From an uncultured Microbacteriaceae bacterium (lineage in GTDB: Bacteria > Actinomycetota > Actinomycetes > Actinomycetales > Microbacteriaceae): a DNA stretch of 64,000 bases. The stretch covers positions 124,001 through 188,000 of the forward strand of contig CANKXX010000002.1 of the NCBI GenBank assembly GCA_947487835.1, written 5' to 3'. Under the pieces are notes generated by a model. The model was not told the origin of the DNA and did no database searches. It was given only the letters and a program-made list of their open reading frames with translations. A program made the translations under genes and the position numbers. Positions 9,108 to 19,830 of the stretch are shown here, piece after piece; position 1 is the first letter of the stretch, and every line of letters starts with the position of its first letter.

Positions 9108-12100
9108 TCAGCCGGTGGGGATGCGGGCCTTCGAGGACCGGCGGAAGGTGACGATGTCGCGGACCGGCCTCCGCGAGACCGCGGGGACCACCGCGAGGGA
9201 GTCGGCGCGGGACCGCGGCGCCGAGGACGCGCCCGCCCGGCGAGGGGCGACGGCAGCGCGGGCGGGGTTGCCCACGAAGGTGGCGCCCTCCGGCACGTCC
9301 TCGCCCTTCATGAGCATCCCGTCGGCGGCCAGCGTCGAGCCGTCCTGCATGACGGCACCGTAGTTGAGCCAGCCGTCCACCCCGACGGAGCAGCCGTCGC
9401 CCAGCACGATGTGGTCGGTCTTGAACGCCCCGTCCTCCATCGAGTGGCCCTGGATGTGGACGCCCTCGTTCAGCGCGCAGTCGTCCCCGAACGTCACGAG
9501 CGACTTCTCCGGCATGTTGCAGCCGGCGTCGTAGAGCCGCCTGCCGACGCGCACCCCGAGGATCCGCCACATGATCGGCCGGAACGGGGTTCCCGCGTAC
9601 TGCGCCCCGCCCATCAGCTTCCACAGGCGCTCGTGCCGCCAGAAGCGCCGGTCGTAGATCGAGAAGTACTGCGGCCGCAAGCGGTGGAAGCCGAGGACCG
9701 ACCACTCGATCAGCGCCTTGAAGCCGAACTGCAGGAGCGAGAACGAGAGCAGAACCGGCGCCGCGACGAGGATCCCCAGGTGGTTGTGCAGGGAGACGGC
9801 GTTGCTGGCCACGACGACCGCGAGGAACATCACGAACCACTGCTCCGCCAGGAACAGCAGCATGCTGACGACGTTGTAGCGGTTCTTCGCCGGGAGGACG
9901 CGCTCCCTCGCCTCGTCGGTCTTGAGCTCGTCGAACGCCGCGTCGCGCAGCACCGACCGGGGGATCTCGAACGCGGGGGAGCCGAGCAGTCCGACGTCCG
10001 TGCGCATCGGTCCGTCGATCGGGATCATGACCTTCGACGCGAGCAGGATGTTGTCGCCGACCGCGGCCCCGCTCGGGAACGCGATGTTGTTGCCGAGGAA
10101 GTTACGCTCGCCGATGCGGACCTCGGCGAGGCGGAACGACGTGCTCGAGAAGTGGGCCGTCATCATGTTGAGGCCGTCGGACACCATCGTTCCGGTCCCC
10201 ACCCGGCAGAGGAACGGGGTCTCGTGGGCGATCGTGGGGCCGAAGTTCGAGCCCGTCTGGACGACCCTGCCGAGGTCGTACCCCAGGGCCCTCAGGTAGT
10301 GCACGATGTACGAGCTGTCGCCGAACAGGTTCTTGTAGGTCGGCACGTTCGACACCGTGGCGATCGTGCGGTGCACCGAGTAGTGCCAGCCGTACAGCGG
10401 GTACACCGTGTCCGGCTCGAGGAAGCGCTTCAGGATGCGCGGGACGGTCACGACGAGGACGAGGCCCCCGACGAAGCTGGCGCCGAAGAAGGCCAGCGTG
10501 ACCCAGAACACCGTGACGATGTACGCCGGGTCCTCCGGGTGGTCGGTGTCGAGGCCCGCGGGCAGCACGATGTCCAGCACCCAGTAGGCCAGCGGGATCA
10601 TCACGAAGAGGCGGCCCACGACCTGCGACAGGCTGTAGAGCACCCGCCGGCGGGTGCTGCACACGACGTCCGGGACTCGCCGGTACTGCGCGTCGGCGCG
10701 CGTGGCGGGAGAGCCGTGCCACACCTCGCCTGCGGGGACCGCCTGGCCCGTCTGCAGCGACGAGGCGTGGCCGAGCTGGCTGCCGTCGCCCATCGATGCG
10801 CCGATGTCGATCGTGGTCCGCTCTGAGACGATCACGTTGCTGCCGAGCGTGACGGGGCCCAGCTCGATCACGCCCGACCGCGCGCGGTAACAGTGGAACG
10901 CGGAGTCCTTGTTGATGACGGTGTGATCGCCGATGGTCAGCAGGTCGGGGCAGGCCGGGATCTTCTTGGCCAGGATCACCACGCCCGTGCCGACCTTCGC
11001 ACCGAGCAGGCGCAGGTACAGCACGTGGATCGGCGCGCCGGCGAACAGCATCAGCGGGTTGGCGCGGGTGATCGTCTTCACCGCCCAGAACCGGAGGTAG
11101 CGCAGGCTCCAGATCTGGATCTCGCCGGGCTTCCAACGCCCGACCAGGACCCACTTGAGGAGGATGGGAGTCGCCGAGAGAAGCAGGAACTCGGCGGCAC
11201 CGACGGACACGGAGCGCACCCAGAAGTCGCCGACGGTCGGCGACTCCACCACCCACTCGTAGGTGAGAAGCGGCACGGCTGCGGCGTACAGCGTGTAAAG
11301 GAGGAAGATCACGGCCTGCAGCACTCCGCAGAACACGTACTTCACCGTGCCGGCCGGCCGGATCGCCGAGGGGACGGCTGCGGAGGCCGGCGCCTCCCGG
11401 TCCTGCTCGCTCTGCATCGCGACGAGCCGCGCGGCCAGCTGCCGGACGGTCGGCCGCTCGTAGATGTCCTGCATCGCCATCCAGGGGAGATCCGTCTCCC
11501 TCCGGACCCGGGCGCAGAAGTGCGCCATCGTGAGGGAGTCCGCGCCGAGGTCGTTGAAGAAGTGCGACTCGGCCGATACCCGGTCGAGCCCGAGTACGGC
11601 GGCGAGGTGCACCGCGAGCGCCTCCTCCGCCGAAGTGCTCGGGGCCGAGTACGGCCCGGTGCCCGAGACGCTCAGCCGGTGCGTCGGGCGCGGCAGCCGC
11701 TTCCGGTCGACCTTGTCGCTCGCCATCATGGGCATCGAGTCCACGGGCTCGTAGTAGGTCGGCACCATGTAGGAGGGCAGCCGGGTGCGGAGCGCCCGGT
11801 GCAGATCGTGGGCATCGATGGCCTGCGCGTCCTCATGCAGCGTGTAGTACGCGGCGAGCTCGACCTTCCCCTCCTCGGGCTCGAAGTTCTGCACGACGGC
11901 CTGGGCCACCTCGGGGATCTGCAGCAGCGAGGACTCGATCTCGGTCAGCTCGATGCGGTAGCCCCGGATCTTGACCTGCGTGTCGATGCGCCCCAGGTAC
12001 TCGACCTCGCCGTCCGCCGTGACGCGGCCGAGGTCCCCGGTGCGGTAGATCCGGCCCGACGGGTTGTTCTCGACGCCGAGGAAGTCCGGGATGAAGGCGC

Positions 12101-13328
12101 GCTCGGTGAGGTCGGGCCGGTTGACGTAGCCGCGCGCCAGCCCGATCCCGGCCAGCCCGATCTCACCCGTCTCGCCCGGTGCGAGGGCCCGGTGGCCCGC
12201 GAGGTCGAGGATCACGACGGAGTACGTCGGCAGCGGCACGCCGAGCGTCACGGGGCGGTCCGGGTCGACGACGCCCCAGGTCGCCGTGACGGTCGCCTCG
12301 GTCGGCCCGTAGACGTTGAGGAACCGGCGCCACGGGCGGTGCCAGCGGGTGATGAGCGCTTTCGGGCAGGCCTCGCCCGAGACGAGGAGGAACCGCAGCC
12401 CGGGAAGGTCCTCCTCGATGGTCGCGAGGAGCGTGGGCACGCAGCACATGGCCGTGACGCGCTTCTCCGTCAGGTACTCCGCGAGCTCGGCGCCGAGCAG
12501 GGCGGAGCGCCCCGGCTTCGGGACGACGGTCGCCCCCACCATCCAGGGCACCCAGTACTCCTCGGCGGAGAAGTCGAAGGCGATGGTCATGCCCTGGTAG
12601 ACGCGGTCGCTCGGTTCCAGCCCGTAGCTCTCCGCGGCCACCCGCACGAAGTTGCAGATGCTGGCGTGCTCGACGGCGACGCCCTTCGGCCTCCCCGTCG
12701 ATCCGGAGGTGTAGATGATGTAGGCGAGGTCGTCGAGCGTGCCGCCCGTCGCCTCACCGGTGAGGCGTGTCGCGCTCCGCGCGTCCACCTCCGCCTGGTC
12801 GGCGTCGAGGCACAGCGTCGGGGCCGCCACCTCGGGCAGCAGGTCCGTGAGGTGGGTCAGGGAGAGCACCATCTCCACGTCGGCATCCTCGATGATGTAC
12901 CGGAGCCGGTCGGACGGGAAGCCCGCGTCCAGCGGCACGAAGGCCGCCCGCATCTTCAGGACCGCGAGCATCGCGACGTAGGAGCGCCAGGGCTGGTCGA
13001 ACAGCAGCGCGATCCGGTCGCCCGGGCGGGCGCCGCGGGCGAGCAGGTGGCGCGCCAGCTGATTGGCCCGCGCGTCGAGCTGCGCGTAGGTGAGCACGAC
13101 CTCGCCCGCGTCGACCGCGACCTGGCCGCCCAGCCCCTCCTCCCGCAGCCGGTCGCAGCGGTCCTCGAACAGCCGGTCCAGGCGCTCGCCGGGACTCCAG
13201 CGGACGGCGCGGTCCGCCCCGGCCGCGACCAGGGTCGTTCCCCGAGCGGGGGTGCCGTGGCTGATGCTCCGGCTGCGCGGTTCGGGCGGGAGGGAGAGTC
13301 CGGTGCGGGTATCCACCGTTGTGCTCAT
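9108..13328 (-). CDS. Pls/PosA-family non-ribosomal peptide synthetase (A-T-[TM2-C]x3; cationic homopolyamino-acid synthetase)
   Basis: Adenylation motifs YIIYTSGSTGRPKG, NVYGPTEATVTATW, YRTGDLGR; carrier motif LGADSLTM; then six hydrophobic segments in pairs, each pair followed by a tandem LbH-like/acyltransferase-like domain (e.g. LTIGDHTVINKDSAFHCY, RIGERNFLGNNIAFPSGAAVGDN, VTFGDDCALNEGVHIQGHSMEDG). No classical C or TE domain. Confidence 0.92.
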   Translation of the reverse strand: MSTTVDTRTGLSLPPEPRSRSISHGTPARGTTLVAAGADRAVRWSPGERLDRLFEDRCDRLREEGLGGQVAVDAGEVVLTYAQLDARANQLARHLLARGARPGDRIALLFDQPWRSYVAMLAVLKMRAAFVPLDAGFPSDRLRYIIEDADVEMVLSLTHLTDLLPEVAAPTLCLDADQAEVDARSATRLTGEATGGTLDDLAYIIYTSGSTGRPKGVAVEHASICNFVRVAAESYGLEPSDRVYQGMTIAFDFSAEEYWVPWMVGATVVPKPGRSALLGAELAEYLTEKRVTAMCCVPTLLATIEEDLPGLRFLLVSGEACPKALITRWHRPWRRFLNVYGPTEATVTATWGVVDPDRPVTLGVPLPTYSVVILDLAGHRALAPGETGEIGLAGIGLARGYVNRPDLTERAFIPDFLGVENNPSGRIYRTGDLGRVTADGEVEYLGRIDTQVKIRGYRIELTEIESSLLQIPEVAQAVVQNFEPEEGKVELAAYYTLHEDAQAIDAHDLHRALRTRLPSYMVPTYYEPVDSMPMMASDKVDRKRLPRPTHRLSVSGTGPYSAPSTSAEEALAVHLAAVLGLDRVSAESHFFNDLGADSLTMAHFCARVRRETDLPWMAMQDIYERPTVRQLAARLVAMQSEQDREAPASAAVPSAIRPAGTVKYVFCGVLQAVIFLLYTLYAAAVPLLTYEWVVESPTVGDFWVRSVSVGAAEFLLLSATPILLKWVLVGRWKPGEIQIWSLRYLRFWAVKTITRANPLMLFAGAPIHVLYLRLLGAKVGTGVVILAKKIPACPDLLTIGDHTVINKDSAFHCYRARSGVIELGPVTLGSNVIVSERTTIDIGASMGDGSQLGHASSLQTGQAVPAGEVWHGSPATRADAQYRRVPDVVCSTRRRVLYSLSQVVGRLFVMIPLAYWVLDIVLPAGLDTDHPEDPAYIVTVFWVTLAFFGASFVGGLVLVVTVPRILKRFLEPDTVYPLYGWHYSVHRTIATVSNVPTYKNLFGDSSYIVHYLRALGYDLGRVVQTGSNFGPTIAHETPFLCRVGTGTMVSDGLNMMTAHFSSTSFRLAEVRIGERNFLGNNIAFPSGAAVGDNILLASKVMIPIDGPMRTDVGLLGSPAFEIPRSVLRDAAFDELKTDEARERVLPAKNRYNVVSMLLFLAEQWFVMFLAVVVASNAVSLHNHLGILVAAPVLLSFSLLQFGFKALIEWSVLGFHRLRPQYFSIYDRRFWRHERLWKLMGGAQYAGTPFRPIMWRILGVRVGRRLYDAGCNMPEKSLVTFGDDCALNEGVHIQGHSMEDGAFKTDHIVLGDGCSVGVDGWLNYGAVMQDGSTLAADGMLMKGEDVPEGATFVGNPARAAVAPRRAGASSAPRSRADSLAVVPAVSRRPVRDIVTFRRSSKARIPTG

Positions 13329-13489: not shown

Positions 13490-14974
13490 TCAGGACGCGG
13501 CCACCGACACGCGGTCGAGGGGTGCCGACGATGGCGAGGCGGAGACGAGTTCCCGGGCCGCGGTCGGCGGATCCGCTGCCCGCGCGGCGGGTCGGACCGG
13601 CGCGGGGACGGGCCGCGGCCCCGGTCCGTCCGCACCCGGCATGCCGAATGCCAGTCGGACCGCGCGCTCGGCGTCGGCCAGCCGGCCGGCGTGGGTGATG
13701 CCCGCGATCCCGGTCTCCGAGATCTCCACGAGGTCGCAGTCGATGCCCACGGCGGAGAGCGCGTTCAGGAAGGTGCAGAGCACCTCGGGGGAGGACCGCA
13801 TCCCCACGCCGGCGATCGCCACCCGGCCGACCGGACCGCCGTGCCGGATGTCCTCGAAGCCCAGGCTCTCGCGCGCAGGGCGGAGCACGGCGAGGGCGAC
13901 GGCCGACTGAGCGGCGGGAACCAGAAGGGCGACGTCGGAGCGGTCCGAGCCGGCCCTGGTCGTGCGGCGCACGGTCTCCACGGTGACGCCCGAGCGGGCG
14001 AGCGTGTCGAAGACCCCCGCGACGTGCTGCGGCGCGTCCGGCAGGCCGACGATGGTCAGCCGCACCGTCGAGTTGACGCTGGTGACGCCCGTCACGACGG
14101 GACGCTCCCGGGCGGAGGTCCCGGCCGGCCGGCCGCCGAGGTCGGGCACGATCAGCGTGCCGGCATCCTCGCTGAAGGACGAGCGCACGCGGATCGTCAC
14201 GCCGAAGCGGCGGGCGTAGCCCACGCAGCGGGCGTGCAGGACCTTGCAGCCCGACGCCGCGAGCTCGAGCATCTCCTCGCTCGAGAGCACGGCGATCTTG
14301 CGCGCCGTCGGCACGATGCGCGGATCGGCCGTGAACACGCCGTCGACGTCCGTGTAGATCTCGCAGGCGAGCGCGCCGAGCGACGCGGCCAGCGCCACCG
14401 CGGTGAGGTCGGAGCCACCGCGACCGAGCGTCGTGACGACCTTCCCCTTCTTCGTCCTGCCCTGGTCGCCGGCGACCACGGGCACCTCGCCCCGCTGCAG
14501 CGCGGCACGCACCCGGCCGGAGCGGACGTCGGTGATGCGGGCTTTGCCGTGCACGCTGTCGGTGATCAGGCCGGCCTGGCTGCCGGTGAACGTGCGCGGT
14601 GACCTGCCCAGCTCGGACAGGGCGATGGCCAGCAGCGCGGACGAGACCAGCTCGCCGATGCTGAGCAGGGCGTCGAGGCTCGACGGCTGCGGTCTCGAGG
14701 AGAGGTCGGCGGCCAGGTCGTAGAGCTCGTCGGTGGTGTCGCCCATCGCGGAGACCACGGCGACGACCTGGTAGCCGTCGTCCAGGGTCGTGGCGATGCG
14801 GGCGGCGGCGCGCTGGATGCCCGCGGCATCGGCCAGGGAGGATCCGCCGAACTTCTGGACGATGACGCCCCGGGCGGGCGCCGCCGTCGGCGCGGCGGGG
14901 AGTGGGTTGTGGAGGAGTGGAGTGTCGGAACCGATCGGGTGATCGCTGTCGGGTGGTGCGATGTCGGTGCTCAT
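13490..14974 (-). CDS. Aspartate kinase
   Basis: VQKFGGSSLADAAGIQRAA, GRGGSDLTAVALAASLGALACEIYTDVDGVFTADPR, two C-terminal ACT-like segments. Confidence 0.93.
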   Translation of the reverse strand: MSTDIAPPDSDHPIGSDTPLLHNPLPAAPTAAPARGVIVQKFGGSSLADAAGIQRAAARIATTLDDGYQVVAVVSAMGDTTDELYDLAADLSSRPQPSSLDALLSIGELVSSALLAIALSELGRSPRTFTGSQAGLITDSVHGKARITDVRSGRVRAALQRGEVPVVAGDQGRTKKGKVVTTLGRGGSDLTAVALAASLGALACEIYTDVDGVFTADPRIVPTARKIAVLSSEEMLELAASGCKVLHARCVGYARRFGVTIRVRSSFSEDAGTLIVPDLGGRPAGTSARERPVVTGVTSVNSTVRLTIVGLPDAPQHVAGVFDTLARSGVTVETVRRTTRAGSDRSDVALLVPAAQSAVALAVLRPARESLGFEDIRHGGPVGRVAIAGVGMRSSPEVLCTFLNALSAVGIDCDLVEISETGIAGITHAGRLADAERAVRLAFGMPGADGPGPRPVPAPVRPAARAADPPTAARELVSASPSSAPLDRVSVAAS

Positions 14975-15054
14975 TGCCTTCTCTGAATCGTGAGGTGCGG
15001 GGCCTTCGGGGGCCCGTGCGGATCGAAGCCTTCGGGGGCTCCTCGTGCGGTGGA

Positions 15055-16326
15055 TCAGGCGACGGTCGTCAGGGTCACTGGCGCTCCCGTCACGTGTTCG
15101 GCCGCGTCAGCGAGGATGTCGAGGCCCCTCTGCAGCTCCTCGGCGGTCGTGGTCAGCGGGGGCATCGTCTTGACGACCTCGCTGCGCGGTCCGGAGGTCT
15201 CGACGAGCAGGCCGCGGGAGTAGGACTCGGCCGCGATCCGGCGCGCGGCCTCGGGATCGGCGTAGAAGATGCCCGTGAGCAGGCCGCGCCCGCGCACGAC
15301 GCTTCCCTCGGTGGCCTCGGCGATGCGACTCAGGCCCTCGTGGAGTCGGGTGGCCAGACCGGCGACGTCGGCGGCGAAGCGGTCGTCCCGCCAGTAGTGC
15401 TCGAGGGCCGCGGTGGCCGTGACGAAGGCCGGGTTGTGGCCGCGGAAGGTGCCGTTGTGCTCGCCGGGTGACCACACGTCCAGTTCCGGTCGGAACAGGG
15501 TGAGCGCCATGGGCAGACCGAAGCCGGAGATGGACTTCGACAGGCAGACGATGTCCGGGGTGATCCCCGCCTCCTCGAAGCTGAAGAAGGTGCCGGTGCG
15601 TCCGCATCCCGCCTGTACGTCGTCGACGATGAGCAGGACGTCGTGCTCGCGGCAGAGCTCGGCGAGGCCGCGGAGCCAGGACGCCCGGGCGGCGCGGAGG
15701 CCGCCCTCGCCCTGCACGGTCTCCACGATGACCGCAGCGGGCCTGTCCAGCCCGGACCCGGAGTCCTCGAGCGCCTGCCGGAGCCAGAGGAAGTCCGGCA
15801 CCGGGCCGTCCAGGTAGCCGTCGTAGGGCACGCTCGACGTGTTCGTCAGCGGCACCCCTGCGCCGTGGCGCTTCATCGAGTTGCCGGTGACGGACAGCGA
15901 GCCGAGCGTCATGCCGTGGAACGCGTTGGTGAAGCTCAGGATGTGCGTGCGGCCCGTGACCTTGCGGGCGAGCTTCAGCGCCGCCTCCACGCAGTTCGTG
16001 CCCGTGGGACCGGGGAACATGACCCTGTAGTCCAGCTGGCGGGGGATCAGGATCAGCTCCTGGAAGGTCTCGAGGAAGCGCCGCTTGGCGGGCGTCTTCA
16101 TGTCGAGCGAGTGCACGACGGCCCCGGAGAGCAGGTAGTCGATCAGGGGGCGCAGCAGCACGGGATTGTTGTGGCCGTAGTTGAGAGCGCCCGCGCCGGC
16201 GAAGAAGTCGAGGAACGTCCGGCCGTCCTCGCTGTGCATGGTGCTACCGGCCGCGGAGTCGAATACCGCGTCCCAATGGCGGGAGTAACTGCGCACTTCC
16301 GATTCCCGTGATTCGAAGACGTCCAT
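15055..16326 (-). CDS. ectB: Diaminobutyrate-2-oxoglutarate transaminase (EctB type)
   Basis: MDVFESRESEVRSYSRHWDAVFDSAAGSTMHSEDGRTFLDFFAGAGALNYGHNNP is the EctB N-terminal signature; PLP-Lys region DIVCLSKSISGFGLPMA. Confidence 0.93.
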   Translation of the reverse strand: MDVFESRESEVRSYSRHWDAVFDSAAGSTMHSEDGRTFLDFFAGAGALNYGHNNPVLLRPLIDYLLSGAVVHSLDMKTPAKRRFLETFQELILIPRQLDYRVMFPGPTGTNCVEAALKLARKVTGRTHILSFTNAFHGMTLGSLSVTGNSMKRHGAGVPLTNTSSVPYDGYLDGPVPDFLWLRQALEDSGSGLDRPAAVIVETVQGEGGLRAARASWLRGLAELCREHDVLLIVDDVQAGCGRTGTFFSFEEAGITPDIVCLSKSISGFGLPMALTLFRPELDVWSPGEHNGTFRGHNPAFVTATAALEHYWRDDRFAADVAGLATRLHEGLSRIAEATEGSVVRGRGLLTGIFYADPEAARRIAAESYSRGLLVETSGPRSEVVKTMPPLTTTAEELQRGLDILADAAEHVTGAPVTLTTVA

Positions 16327-16413
16327 CGTCGGTTTCCTTCTGCTGACCGAATGAGTCGGGTGACTTCCCGTTATCGAGGAATGCCAGTGAGGCGCCCCCG
16401 ATTCGGTCCCGGC

Positions 16414-16461
16414 GGACAGGTGAGGAACGGGGCACTCCGATGTGCCGATCCTTTCCTGTCC
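16414..16461 (-). promoter_or_regulatory. Nested hairpin in predicted 5' leader of ectB
   Basis: Outer arms GGACAGG (16414-16420)/CCTGTCC (16455-16461), inner arms GGCAC (16431-16435)/GTGCC (16442-16446). Confidence 0.4.
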
Positions 16462-16522
16462 ACCCGGACGATGCCTCTTCCCGGGCCGGCTGTCCGGCTC
16501 GACGGGGCAACACCCGATAACG

Positions 16523-16583
16523 ACTCTAAGAAGAGCGCTGTTATCGCCGCGTTACCGCTGCGTTATCGCAGAGTCACCGTTGA
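16523..16583 (-). promoter_or_regulatory. Predicted SARP-dependent promoter of ectB: four 11-bp-periodic direct repeats plus -10-like TAGAGT
   Basis: On + strand: gttatcgccgc (16540-16550), gttaccgctgc (16551-16561), gttatcgcaga (16562-16572), gtcaccgttga (16573-16583, degenerate); minus-strand TAGAGT at 16528-16523. Confidence 0.6.
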
Positions 16584-16811
16584 ATAGACAGCAGCAGGGA
16601 ACGACCGCCTGACGGAACTCAGGCACGACCAGGGAAAAAGAGAGCGAGTACGACGCTGCCGACCAGGGGACGGGCGCACGGCATATCCTGGCGACGCGGC
16701 AGGACTATTCCGATCCGGGCATCGCTGAGTGCCCCGCCGAATGCTTCCGCCTCGGCGTGGTGGTTCCTATCCGGAAAGGATGTCTCTCACGCGGGAATCG
16801 ACTGGATGAGG

Positions 16812-17942
16812 TCACTCCCGAGAGGTCATCGCGAATGCCGCGGCCGTATAAGCGAGGGCGCCCGACATGTCGACGAGCAGATCCTCATCGATGTTCTCGA
16901 TGGTGTCGCAGGATTGGTGGTAACAGGGGTCGAGATCGCGCCCGACCACGCCGCCGTATGCCCGCGCCTGTTCGGCGGTCTTTGTCGCGCTGTCCCCGGT
17001 GAAAAGGCCGCCGGCGGGTATTCCGGCGTCGAGGAATGGGGCGTAGTCGGAGCCTCCGTCGAATGGCGTCGTCTCCGCGTCGAGCGCATTCTCGGCGAAG
17101 AATCGGAAGAACGTTTCCTCGATGTCGAGGGACCCGTCCGGGCCGCCGTTGCCGTGGTCCGACCCGTCCCCGTCGTGCACCGAGCGCACGCCGTTGGGCG
17201 ACCCGACCATGTCGACGTTGAGGTTCAGGGCTGTGCCCGCCCGTTCGGCGTCGGTGAGCTCGTCGACGTAGTGCTCCGATCCGTGGAACCCGTCCTCCTC
17301 GCCTCCCCAGAAGGCGAACCGAACCCGGTTTGCGGGGGTGGCGCCGGACTCGGCCAGCCAGAGGGCCGTCTCGAGCATCGCGGCGATACCACTCGCGTTG
17401 TCGTTGATGCCCGGGCCCCGGCGCACGGAGTCGAGGTGGCCGCCGACGACGATGGTGTGGTCCGGGTCGCCCCCGGTGTCCGCGAGCACGCTGAAGGTCT
17501 CGATGCGGTCGTCCTCGTCGACTCCGCGGTCGTCCCGGTCCCGGCCCCCGCGGTCGTCCCGGTCCCGCCGGTCGCTCCGGTAGTCGAACTCCTGCCGAAC
17601 CGTCTCGTACCCCGCCGCGCGGAGCTGCCTCTCCACGTACCGGGCCGACGCCTCGTACCCGGACGTGCCGGCCGCGCGGTTGCCGTCGTGCTCGTCCGCG
17701 ATCTCCTGGAGCGCCTCGAGGTGCCGCACCAGGTCCCGGTCCGCGAACGCGTCGCGCACGGTGCGCGCCTCGAACCCCGGGGTCTCCGGTTCCGCCGCAA
17801 CCTCCGGGATGCCGGGCACGTTCGGCCGCCCTGTCATGCGGTCGACGCCCGGGGCGGTGCAGCCCGCGAGCAGCAGCGCGATGGCGCCGGCGGTCAACGC
17901 AGCGTGAAACCCGCCGCCGGCGCGGGCGCCGCGTCCCGTCAC
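16812..17942 (-). CDS. Lipoprotein M28-family metallopeptidase (aminopeptidase-like)
   Basis: Lipobox LLLAGC; zinc-ligand motifs VVGGHLDSV, GINDNASG, WGGEEDGFHGSEHY, NVDMVGSP, CYHQSCDTIENID; GTG start overlaps SARP stop (GTGA). Confidence 0.87.
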   Translation of the reverse strand: MTGRGARAGGGFHAALTAGAIALLLAGCTAPGVDRMTGRPNVPGIPEVAAEPETPGFEARTVRDAFADRDLVRHLEALQEIADEHDGNRAAGTSGYEASARYVERQLRAAGYETVRQEFDYRSDRRDRDDRGGRDRDDRGVDEDDRIETFSVLADTGGDPDHTIVVGGHLDSVRRGPGINDNASGIAAMLETALWLAESGATPANRVRFAFWGGEEDGFHGSEHYVDELTDAERAGTALNLNVDMVGSPNGVRSVHDGDGSDHGNGGPDGSLDIEETFFRFFAENALDAETTPFDGGSDYAPFLDAGIPAGGLFTGDSATKTAEQARAYGGVVGRDLDPCYHQSCDTIENIDEDLLVDMSGALAYTAAAFAMTSRE

Positions 17943-18652
17943 CGGCCGACCGTGATCTCGGTGATGAGGTGCTGCAGCCGGGGGGACGGTTCGACCCCGA
18001 GCTCGTCGATCAGCAGCGCGCGGAAGTCCTCGAACGCCCGGAGCGCCGGATAGTAGTTGCCCGTCGAGATGTGGCCCTGCACCATCAGCTGGATCGGGCT
18101 CTCGCGGAGCGGCTCGATCGAGGCGGCCACGCCCGCCGCCTCGGAGCACCGGGCGCCGTCCCCCGCGGCGAGGAACTTTCCGGCCAGGACCTCGAGCGCC
18201 CGCAGGCGCCGCTGATCCGCCCGCTCCTGCTCGGTGATGACCCAGTCGTCGTACCAGCCGGGGAGGAGCACCGCGCTCTCGAGCGCGGCGATGTCAGCAG
18301 GGTCGGGCCGTGTTGCCGGGGACGCGATGGCCGCGATGCGCTCCTGCAGGCGGTGCACGTCGAGCGTCACCCGCGGCGCGAGTGCCAGGGAGTCCGAGGT
18401 GATGCTGAGTACGTCCGGGAGATCGTGACTGATCTTCCACATGCCGGTGCGCAGGTTGCCGGCAGCCCTGGCCTCCGGCGTCGCGGGCCAGAGCAGTTCG
18501 GCGAGCACGCTCCGCGGCCGGCTCCCCAGCAGGGCGAGCGCCGCGATGATCCGCTGCTGCCGGGGAGCGACATCGACGACGACACCGCCCTGCCGCAGCT
18601 GCCAGTGACCGAGGAGGTCCAGTTCCCATGGGTCCTGCCGTGCGGACATCAT
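17939..18652 (-). CDS. SARP-type transcriptional regulator with BTAD domain
   Basis: N-terminal winged-helix (LDLLGHWQLRQGGVVVDVAPRQQRIIAALALLGSRPRSVLAELLWP) and C-terminal BTAD (YYPALRAFEDFRALLIDELGVEPSPRLQHL). Confidence 0.88.
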   Translation of the reverse strand: MMSARQDPWELDLLGHWQLRQGGVVVDVAPRQQRIIAALALLGSRPRSVLAELLWPATPEARAAGNLRTGMWKISHDLPDVLSITSDSLALAPRVTLDVHRLQERIAAIASPATRPDPADIAALESAVLLPGWYDDWVITEQERADQRRLRALEVLAGKFLAAGDGARCSEAAGVAASIEPLRESPIQLMVQGHISTGNYYPALRAFEDFRALLIDELGVEPSPRLQHLITEITVGR

Positions 18653-18913
18653 GCCGACTCCGGGTTCGATCGAAAGGGTGCCGCGTTCGTGCGCGCTGCT
18701 GTAGCCACCATTGCCTCCTGCTGCGAGTAATACTCATGTTCTCTCGCATCCGATCGGAGTCATAGACCCACATCGACAGTGGTCCTCCCCAAATTTGGGG
18801 GCTACCCGAGGGGGCGATCATGGGGCGTCAGCCGGGGGCGTGGGGCGAATCGGGGCGGATCGGCGGCGCGACGCGGAGGGGATCGGGGTCTGCTGCGGAC
18901 GCGGACGGGACGG

Positions 18914-19603
18914 TCAGCGGACCCGCGCGACGGCCACCGCGAGCACGAGTTCCGGCGGAAGGGTCAGGGGCGCGGGGTCGTCGTCGACCCACTCGATGCC
19001 CTCGAGGGAGCCTCCCGACGCGTCGACGTCGGACGGCTCGCGGAAGAGGCCGGCGCCCGTCACCTTGAGGAAGGCCTCCTTCCTCGCCCACAGCCGAGCA
19101 CGCATCCGCTGTGCCTCGGGCTCACCGATCCGGCGCAGCGACGAACGCTCGGCGGGGGTGAGGGCGACGTCGTCGAACCCGGCGAAGCCGACCCCGCCCA
19201 CATCCTCCAGGTCCACGCCGACGGCCCGGATGGCGGGATCGGTCGTTCCCACCACGACGCACCAGGGTCCCGAGCGGCTGAGGCTGAGCCGCGCCGTGGT
19301 GCCGCCCGCGGGCGAGCGATAGCCGGGGCGGCCGTGGTCGATGGGGCCGCACCGCCCGCAGTTCGCGCACGCATAGTCGAGCCCGAGGGCGGCCGGCTCG
19401 GCGCCGAGGAGGTCGGCGGCGAAGCGCCGGATCGCCGTCCGTCCCGCCAGGAAGCGGTCGCGCTCGGGTCCCTCCGGCATGGCCGCCGCCCTGCCGAGCT
19501 CTACCGGGTGCAGGACCCCGGTCCCGCCCGCCGTGGGCGAGAGGCTCGGGGCGTCCAGGCGGACCGCGCCCAGGGTGAGGCTGCCCCACTGCATCGACGA
19601 CAC
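18914..19603 (-). CDS. 4'-phosphopantetheinyl transferase (Sfp type)
   Basis: AVGVDLEDV and RLWARKEAFLKVTGAGL motifs, YACANCGRCGPIDHGRP segment. Confidence 0.88.
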   Translation of the reverse strand: MSSMQWGSLTLGAVRLDAPSLSPTAGGTGVLHPVELGRAAAMPEGPERDRFLAGRTAIRRFAADLLGAEPAALGLDYACANCGRCGPIDHGRPGYRSPAGGTTARLSLSRSGPWCVVVGTTDPAIRAVGVDLEDVGGVGFAGFDDVALTPAERSSLRRIGEPEAQRMRARLWARKEAFLKVTGAGLFREPSDVDASGGSLEGIEWVDDDPAPLTLPPELVLAVAVARVR

Positions 19604-19830
19604 AGCGCCACGCTAATCCCTCGGCGCCGGTTCCTCCCCGTCCACCCGGGAGGGCGCAGGGTGCGGGTGCGTTACGCGCCGTGACCGACCCGCCGCCCGT
19701 TCGTCGTCGTTCCGCCGCGGTTCGGGGAAGAATCGCGGGAGGCGGCACACGCGGTCGTCGCGTGCGCCGCCACCGGCGCTGTCGCCCCGCGAGACCGCTG
19801 CACCGCACCACCGACAAAGGAGTTCCGCCC

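Follow-up and report, generated by a model that had tools for sequence, protein, structure and literature searches.

An array of CGRTRAC heptamers upstream of ectB, in a predicted antimicrobial-polymer operon, was identified as a putative SARP operator, and it is very likely that it forms part of the ectB promoter and carries two or three side-by-side protomers activating ectB-ask-pls. The window, which is the whole 64,000-nucleotide stretch analysed here, derives from a genome of the genus Planctomonas (Microbacteriaceae), whose nearest named relative is P. deserti (synthetase 84% identical). This reading is based on the array itself and its conservation, on the SARP fold, and on the finding that this architecture is associated with SARP genes.

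The cluster is located entirely on the minus strand, and consists of genes for a phosphopantetheinyl transferase, a small SARP and an M28 peptidase, followed by a 485-bp intergenic region and then ectB/dat, ask and a Pls/PosA-family synthetase gene (Table 1). Known gamma-poly-diaminobutyrate clusters (pldA/pddA) include dat, ask and a Pls-type synthetase gene together (PMC8117764), and in the window dat and ask were likewise found beside the synthetase gene. As this set matches that of the known clusters, the product is probably, by analogy, a poly-diaminobutyrate. The window differs from those clusters in the addition of the SARP, M28 peptidase and phosphopantetheinyl transferase genes, and among the papers listed in a literature search there was no relevant report of SARP control of polylysine-type or gamma-poly-diaminobutyrate clusters. 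A signal of lipoprotein type (LLLAGC) is present in the M28 peptidase, whose gene begins before the SARP gene has ended; the peptidase may be involved in trimming or degradation of the polymer or in self-protection.

Table 1. Genes and promoter features of the cluster, in window coordinates
Feature	Position	Strand	Evidence
Pls/PosA-family synthetase, probably gamma-poly-diaminobutyrate synthetase	9108..13328	-	TIGR02353, 674 bits; dat-ask-pls set (PMC8117764)
Aspartate kinase (ask)	13490..14974	-	TIGR00657
ectB/dat, diaminobutyrate--2-oxoglutarate transaminase	15055..16326	-	TIGR02407, 626 bits
Predicted ectB mRNA 5' leader, ~190 nt	16327..16516	-	Inference from -10 position and ectB start
Isolated GTTATCG in leader, not kept in P. 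deserti; probably chance	16370..16376	+	Sequence; P. deserti comparison
Inverted CGATAAC copy over predicted transcription start; kept in P. deserti only	16515..16521	+	Sequence; relatives
-10 box TAGAGT, exactly 11 nt past repeat 1; TAGTGT, TACAGT in relatives	16523..16528	-	Sequence; relatives
Repeat 1 (promoter-proximal), CGATAAC	16540..16546	-	Sequence; register common to two relatives
Repeat 2, CGGTAAC	16551..16557	-	Sequence; identical 11-mer GCAGCGGTAAC in P. deserti
Repeat 3, CGATAAC	16562..16568	-	Sequence; relatives' comparison
Repeat 4 (distal), CGGTGAC; degenerate in relatives (CGATGTC, CGGCGTC)	16573..16579	-	Sequence; relatives' comparison
M28 aminopeptidase-like gene, start overlapping SARP stop	16812..17945	-	PF04389
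Small SARP regulator (winged helix and BTAD), predicted activator	17939..18652	-	Pfam; AfsR alignment; structure model
4'-phosphopantetheinyl transferase	18914..19603	-	PF01648

The four contiguous 11-mers that a first-pass annotation had proposed as a SARP binding site were found at 16540–16583 on the plus strand, exactly as written there. Read toward ectB on the minus strand (16579 to 16523), the array is CGGTGAC-TCTG-CGATAAC-GCAG-CGGTAAC-GCGG-CGATAAC-AGCGCTCTTCT-TAGAGT, and the gap to the TAGAGT box, described as -10-like and 11 nt past the array, is exactly 11 nt. As TAGAGT occupies 16528..16523, position 16523, at which the annotated feature started, is the end of the -10 box. All four repeats of the proposed unit, which toward ectB is CGRTRAC on the minus strand, are present, but in the relatives the fourth, farthest upstream, is degenerate, and the conserved unit is therefore three repeats. 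The isolated copies of the core noted at ~16370 and ~16515 both exist, though the first is unconserved and the second is inverted and kept in P. deserti only; GTTATCG occurs just 4 times in the 64 kb, three of these copies being at the ectB upstream region. A palindromic operator formed with the inverted copy was rejected, as the third Planctomonas genome (G001) lacks its arms, which in P. deserti are no longer complementary.

In SARP operators the repeats are 11 or 22 bp apart and the 3' repeat lies 8 bp from the -10 element (PMC10936776, PMC4393881), and the four units in the window are spaced at exactly 11 bp. When the heptamers are read as CGRTRAC, the last ends 11 nt before the -10 box. 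When they are read from the invariant T (TRACGSN), they become TAACAGC, TAACGCG, TAACGCA and TGACTCT, and TAACAGC ends exactly 8 nt before TAGAGT. The T-first register is backed both by the OtcR repeat, CGGTCGAAG, which is made up of CGG and then a repeat of TCGA type (CGG-TCGAAG; PMC4393881), and by the base contacts of AfsR, in which R92 contacts the T at -27/-38 (PMC10936776). If, by analogy with AfsR, TAGAGT is taken as -12 to -7, the invariant T would fall at -27, -38 and -49, the first two coinciding with the T contacted by R92. A sigma-70 promoter with a -35/-10 pair was not found at the ectB promoter, where the array fills the -35 region. The classical layout suggested earlier, with 11-bp heptamers just upstream of a -10 box, thus holds, the 8-bp distance being counted from the invariant T.

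The SARP gene, which had been placed ~1.4 kb from the array, lies 1.36 kb away, and its product includes a BTAD domain (PF03704, 56.6 bits), the only domain called by Pfam, which left the N-terminal winged helix uncalled. An AlphaFold model (pLDDT 96.3) found its best structural matches in AfsR on its promoter (8k60/8hvr; TM 0.80, full length), followed by EmbR, and the alignment with AfsR over the whole length takes in the N-terminal OmpR-like winged helix. As the model matches AfsR over its full length, the protein is predicted to have the complete SARP fold, and on this model it is a structural SARP like the DNA-binding/BTAD unit of AfsR. In the alignment, the base-contacting residues T88 and R92 of AfsR correspond to T and K, respectively.

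A search of 245 Microbacteriaceae genomes at the stringency used found the synthetase in three Planctomonas genomes only, and direct phylogenetic footprinting was therefore limited to three species. The arrays are CGGTGAC-GCAG-CGGTAAC-GGAA-CGGTGAC-GGCGGCCTTCT-TAGTGT in P. deserti and CCGTAAC-GGCG-GTGTAAC-GCTC-CGGTGAC-CGTCCGATGCC-TACAGT in G001, where two of the three repeats are imperfect. All three species are identical in period, in register and in the 11-nt gap that precedes a TA-N3-T -10 box, so that the repeats, which the first-pass annotation had suggested seeking in syntenic clusters, are kept in both of the other clusters of the genus. In an ungapped alignment anchored on the -10 box, identity was 0.62–0.68 over the array and 0.67–0.83 in the -10 box, and fell to background (0.22–0.40) just upstream of the array. 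The G001 cluster (L038 8439–16768) is rearranged, with a SARP gene that is divergent from the transferase gene and encodes a protein ~38% identical to the window SARP; this SARP has been replaced, or has diverged to that level, and the ectB operator is kept even so. No match to the aspartate kinase gene was found in the 18-kb stretch of G001.

The initially transcribed region (16493–16522, minus strand; GGGTGNTGYCCCGNCG) is conserved to the same degree as the operator, with 0.90 identity to P. deserti and 0.60 to G001 (L032 and L038 equivalents), and conservation falls beyond it. A conserved hairpin in this region was rejected, as only the P. deserti sequence clearly beats shuffles (z -2.2) and those of the window and G001 do not. 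Examination of the leader for a riboswitch or other known RNA returned only sub-threshold microRNA matches far below the gathering score.

The architecture was also sought at 32 loci with homologous SARPs in other genomes of the order (Micrococcales), G001 included, none of which had defined the heptamer scan. The pattern CGRTRAC-N(p)-CGRTRAC-gap-TANNNT was scanned at periods 8–14 and gaps 5–18, and a locus was counted as a match at a score of at least 11/14. CGRTRAC-N4-CGRTRAC-N10-11-TANNNT was found in 8 of the 32 loci (shuffle mean 0.5, maximum 2 in 40 runs), the only peak in the counts being at period 11 with a gap of 10–11, and no other setting matching more than one locus. A 322-kb control gave 2 matches, one of them within a locus that had been picked for having an array. 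At locus L058, the array CGATAAC-TCAT-CAGTAAC-TCAC-CGGTAAC-N11-TACCCT points toward a gene that has a caspase domain and diverges from the SARP gene. This Peptidase_C14 gene and its array (L058 359–1216 and 1216–1300) belong to another genus, and the same layout is seen in L059. At five further loci (L066, L070, L072, L074 and L075) the architecture lies a short distance before the SARP gene itself, a position that suggests autoregulation. At L034, three repeats were found upstream of a short ORF near the SARP gene, without TA-N3-T at the expected place. The region concerned (L034 7987–8273) lies next to a large ORF whose C-terminal domain is ParA-like, and the locus is possibly a peptide natural-product cluster.

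No such array was present within 1.5 kb of three close SARP homologues (L004, L006 and L061). In other orders of the class, 25 SARP loci were scanned and showed no enrichment of the heptamer architecture (1 found, 0.28 expected), and the heptamer was therefore discarded as a universal SARP signature and is limited to part of the SARP family, a restriction that is expected as the known repeats of the family are different. The bare triple was likewise rejected as a SARP predictor. In 10 other Micrococcales genomes with such a triple, a SARP homologue was found nearby only in G382; CGGTGAC triples elsewhere had none within 10 kb, indicating that the heptamer by itself is not specific to SARPs. 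The CGGTGAC triples of three large Micrococcales genomes (L081 9343, L082 9838 and L085 3732), which have no SARP homologue nearby, are followed by a common sequence, CGCTGCACTGG, and perhaps belong to another 11-bp-repeat regulator.

OmpR/PhoB-type response regulators also have winged helices and use 11-bp direct repeats, the core of the PHO box being GTTCACC repeated directly at 11 bp. The array could thus be a PHO-box-like site bound by such a regulator rather than by the cluster SARP, and the CGGTGAC triples away from SARP genes in some Micrococcales genomes are in keeping with this, as is the overlap of PhoP and AfsR sites in Streptomyces (PMC10936776). However, GTTCACC is absent within 15000–19700, the array accompanies SARP genes from one genus to another and keeps a fixed gap to the -10 box, and several sites would be expected of a global regulator, whereas the array is single in the genome; a PHO box is therefore considered unlikely here. 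A SARP operator acted on by another BTAD protein of the genome is a very improbable alternative. Two further BTAD-type homologues are encoded (C2:451037 and C2:71649), but both are far away and just 26–30% identical to the window SARP, and in all three species the array is inside a cluster with its own SARP, moved or replaced in one of them.

The periodicity of the array was assessed by a motif-free test in which the 485-bp intergenic region was dinucleotide-shuffled (n=2000) and the whole 64 kb was shuffled (n=60). At period 11 the four repeats score 25/28 over seven columns, a value reached by 0.05% of the intergenic shuffles, or by 0.1% when any period of 8–25 was allowed. Over all 11 columns the score is 36/44, which was reached by none of the 2000 intergenic shuffles. 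In the 3.9-Mb genome, the triple CGRTRAC array is single at up to 2 mismatches, and the ectB site is the one best match to the architecture of two repeats plus a -10 box. It is thus extremely improbable that the repeats arose by chance or as a simple-repeat artefact and have no regulatory role: 2 of the 60 whole-window shuffles reached the same 36/44, meaning that in a stretch as long as the window such a score can now and then arise somewhere, but the array, in an intergenic region of 485 bp, stands directly before a -10 box (p at most 0.001), is kept in three species and recurs at other SARP genes.

The SARP-site reading is supported by the syntenic conservation, the structural SARP and the enrichment at independent Micrococcales SARP genes, and it can be compared with three known systems. 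Like the array, the AfsR box of the afsS promoter in S. coelicolor consists of 11-bp direct repeats over the -35 region with T at the same positions, and AfsR protomers lie side by side on a 22-bp box from -40 to -19 (PMC10936776). However, there are two repeats at afsS and three to four in the window, and AfsR is a large SARP with R92 whereas the window SARP is small and has K in its place. The OtcR operators of the oxytetracycline cluster in S. rimosus share CGG-TNNNNN repeats 11 bp apart, with the 3' repeat 8 bp from the -10 box, and their regulator is also a small cluster-situated SARP (PMC4393881), but their repeat differs from the CGRTRACGS of the window. The PimR operator (pimaricin) likewise has three heptamers with 4-bp spacers (PMC5930380), but its heptamer is CGGCAAG, the regulator is a large SARP-LAL protein and the operator does not overlap the -35 element. 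As a predicted SARP operator the array would belong to a known kind, and among the papers listed in a literature search there was no published CGGTRAC SARP heptamer.

In the proposed mechanism, the three conserved repeats (GRTRACGS cores) would lie on one face of the DNA, with protomers of the cluster SARP side by side on adjacent repeats and the promoter-proximal one abutting RNA polymerase. As the promoter has no -35 box, sigma region 4 would be unable to engage alone, and the SARP would bring RNA polymerase to the weak TAGAGT -10 box as AfsR does at afsS. Binding would in this way switch on ectB-ask-pls from one site, and EctB and aspartokinase would supply diaminobutyrate to the Pls-type synthetase. 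Such a switch is of the expected kind, and the sequences of the relatives support it well.

With the chances about even, the small SARPs of Micrococcales may have a common, previously undescribed class of operator (CGRTRAC at 11 bp, 10–11 nt before TANNNT) that serves chemically unrelated clusters, its target being the cationic poly-diaminobutyrate operon in the window and, in other genomes, a gene for a caspase-like protein or the SARP genes themselves. If so, SARP targets would be readable from genome sequence outside Streptomyces, and the heptamer offers a means of predicting such targets in part of the Micrococcales. Genes for cationic homopolymer synthetases can stay silent in cultured strains, and the trigger in Corynebacterium is unknown (PMC8117764). 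With an activator encoded in the cluster and one clear operator, a direct handle would be available, namely overexpression of the SARP to turn the operon on.
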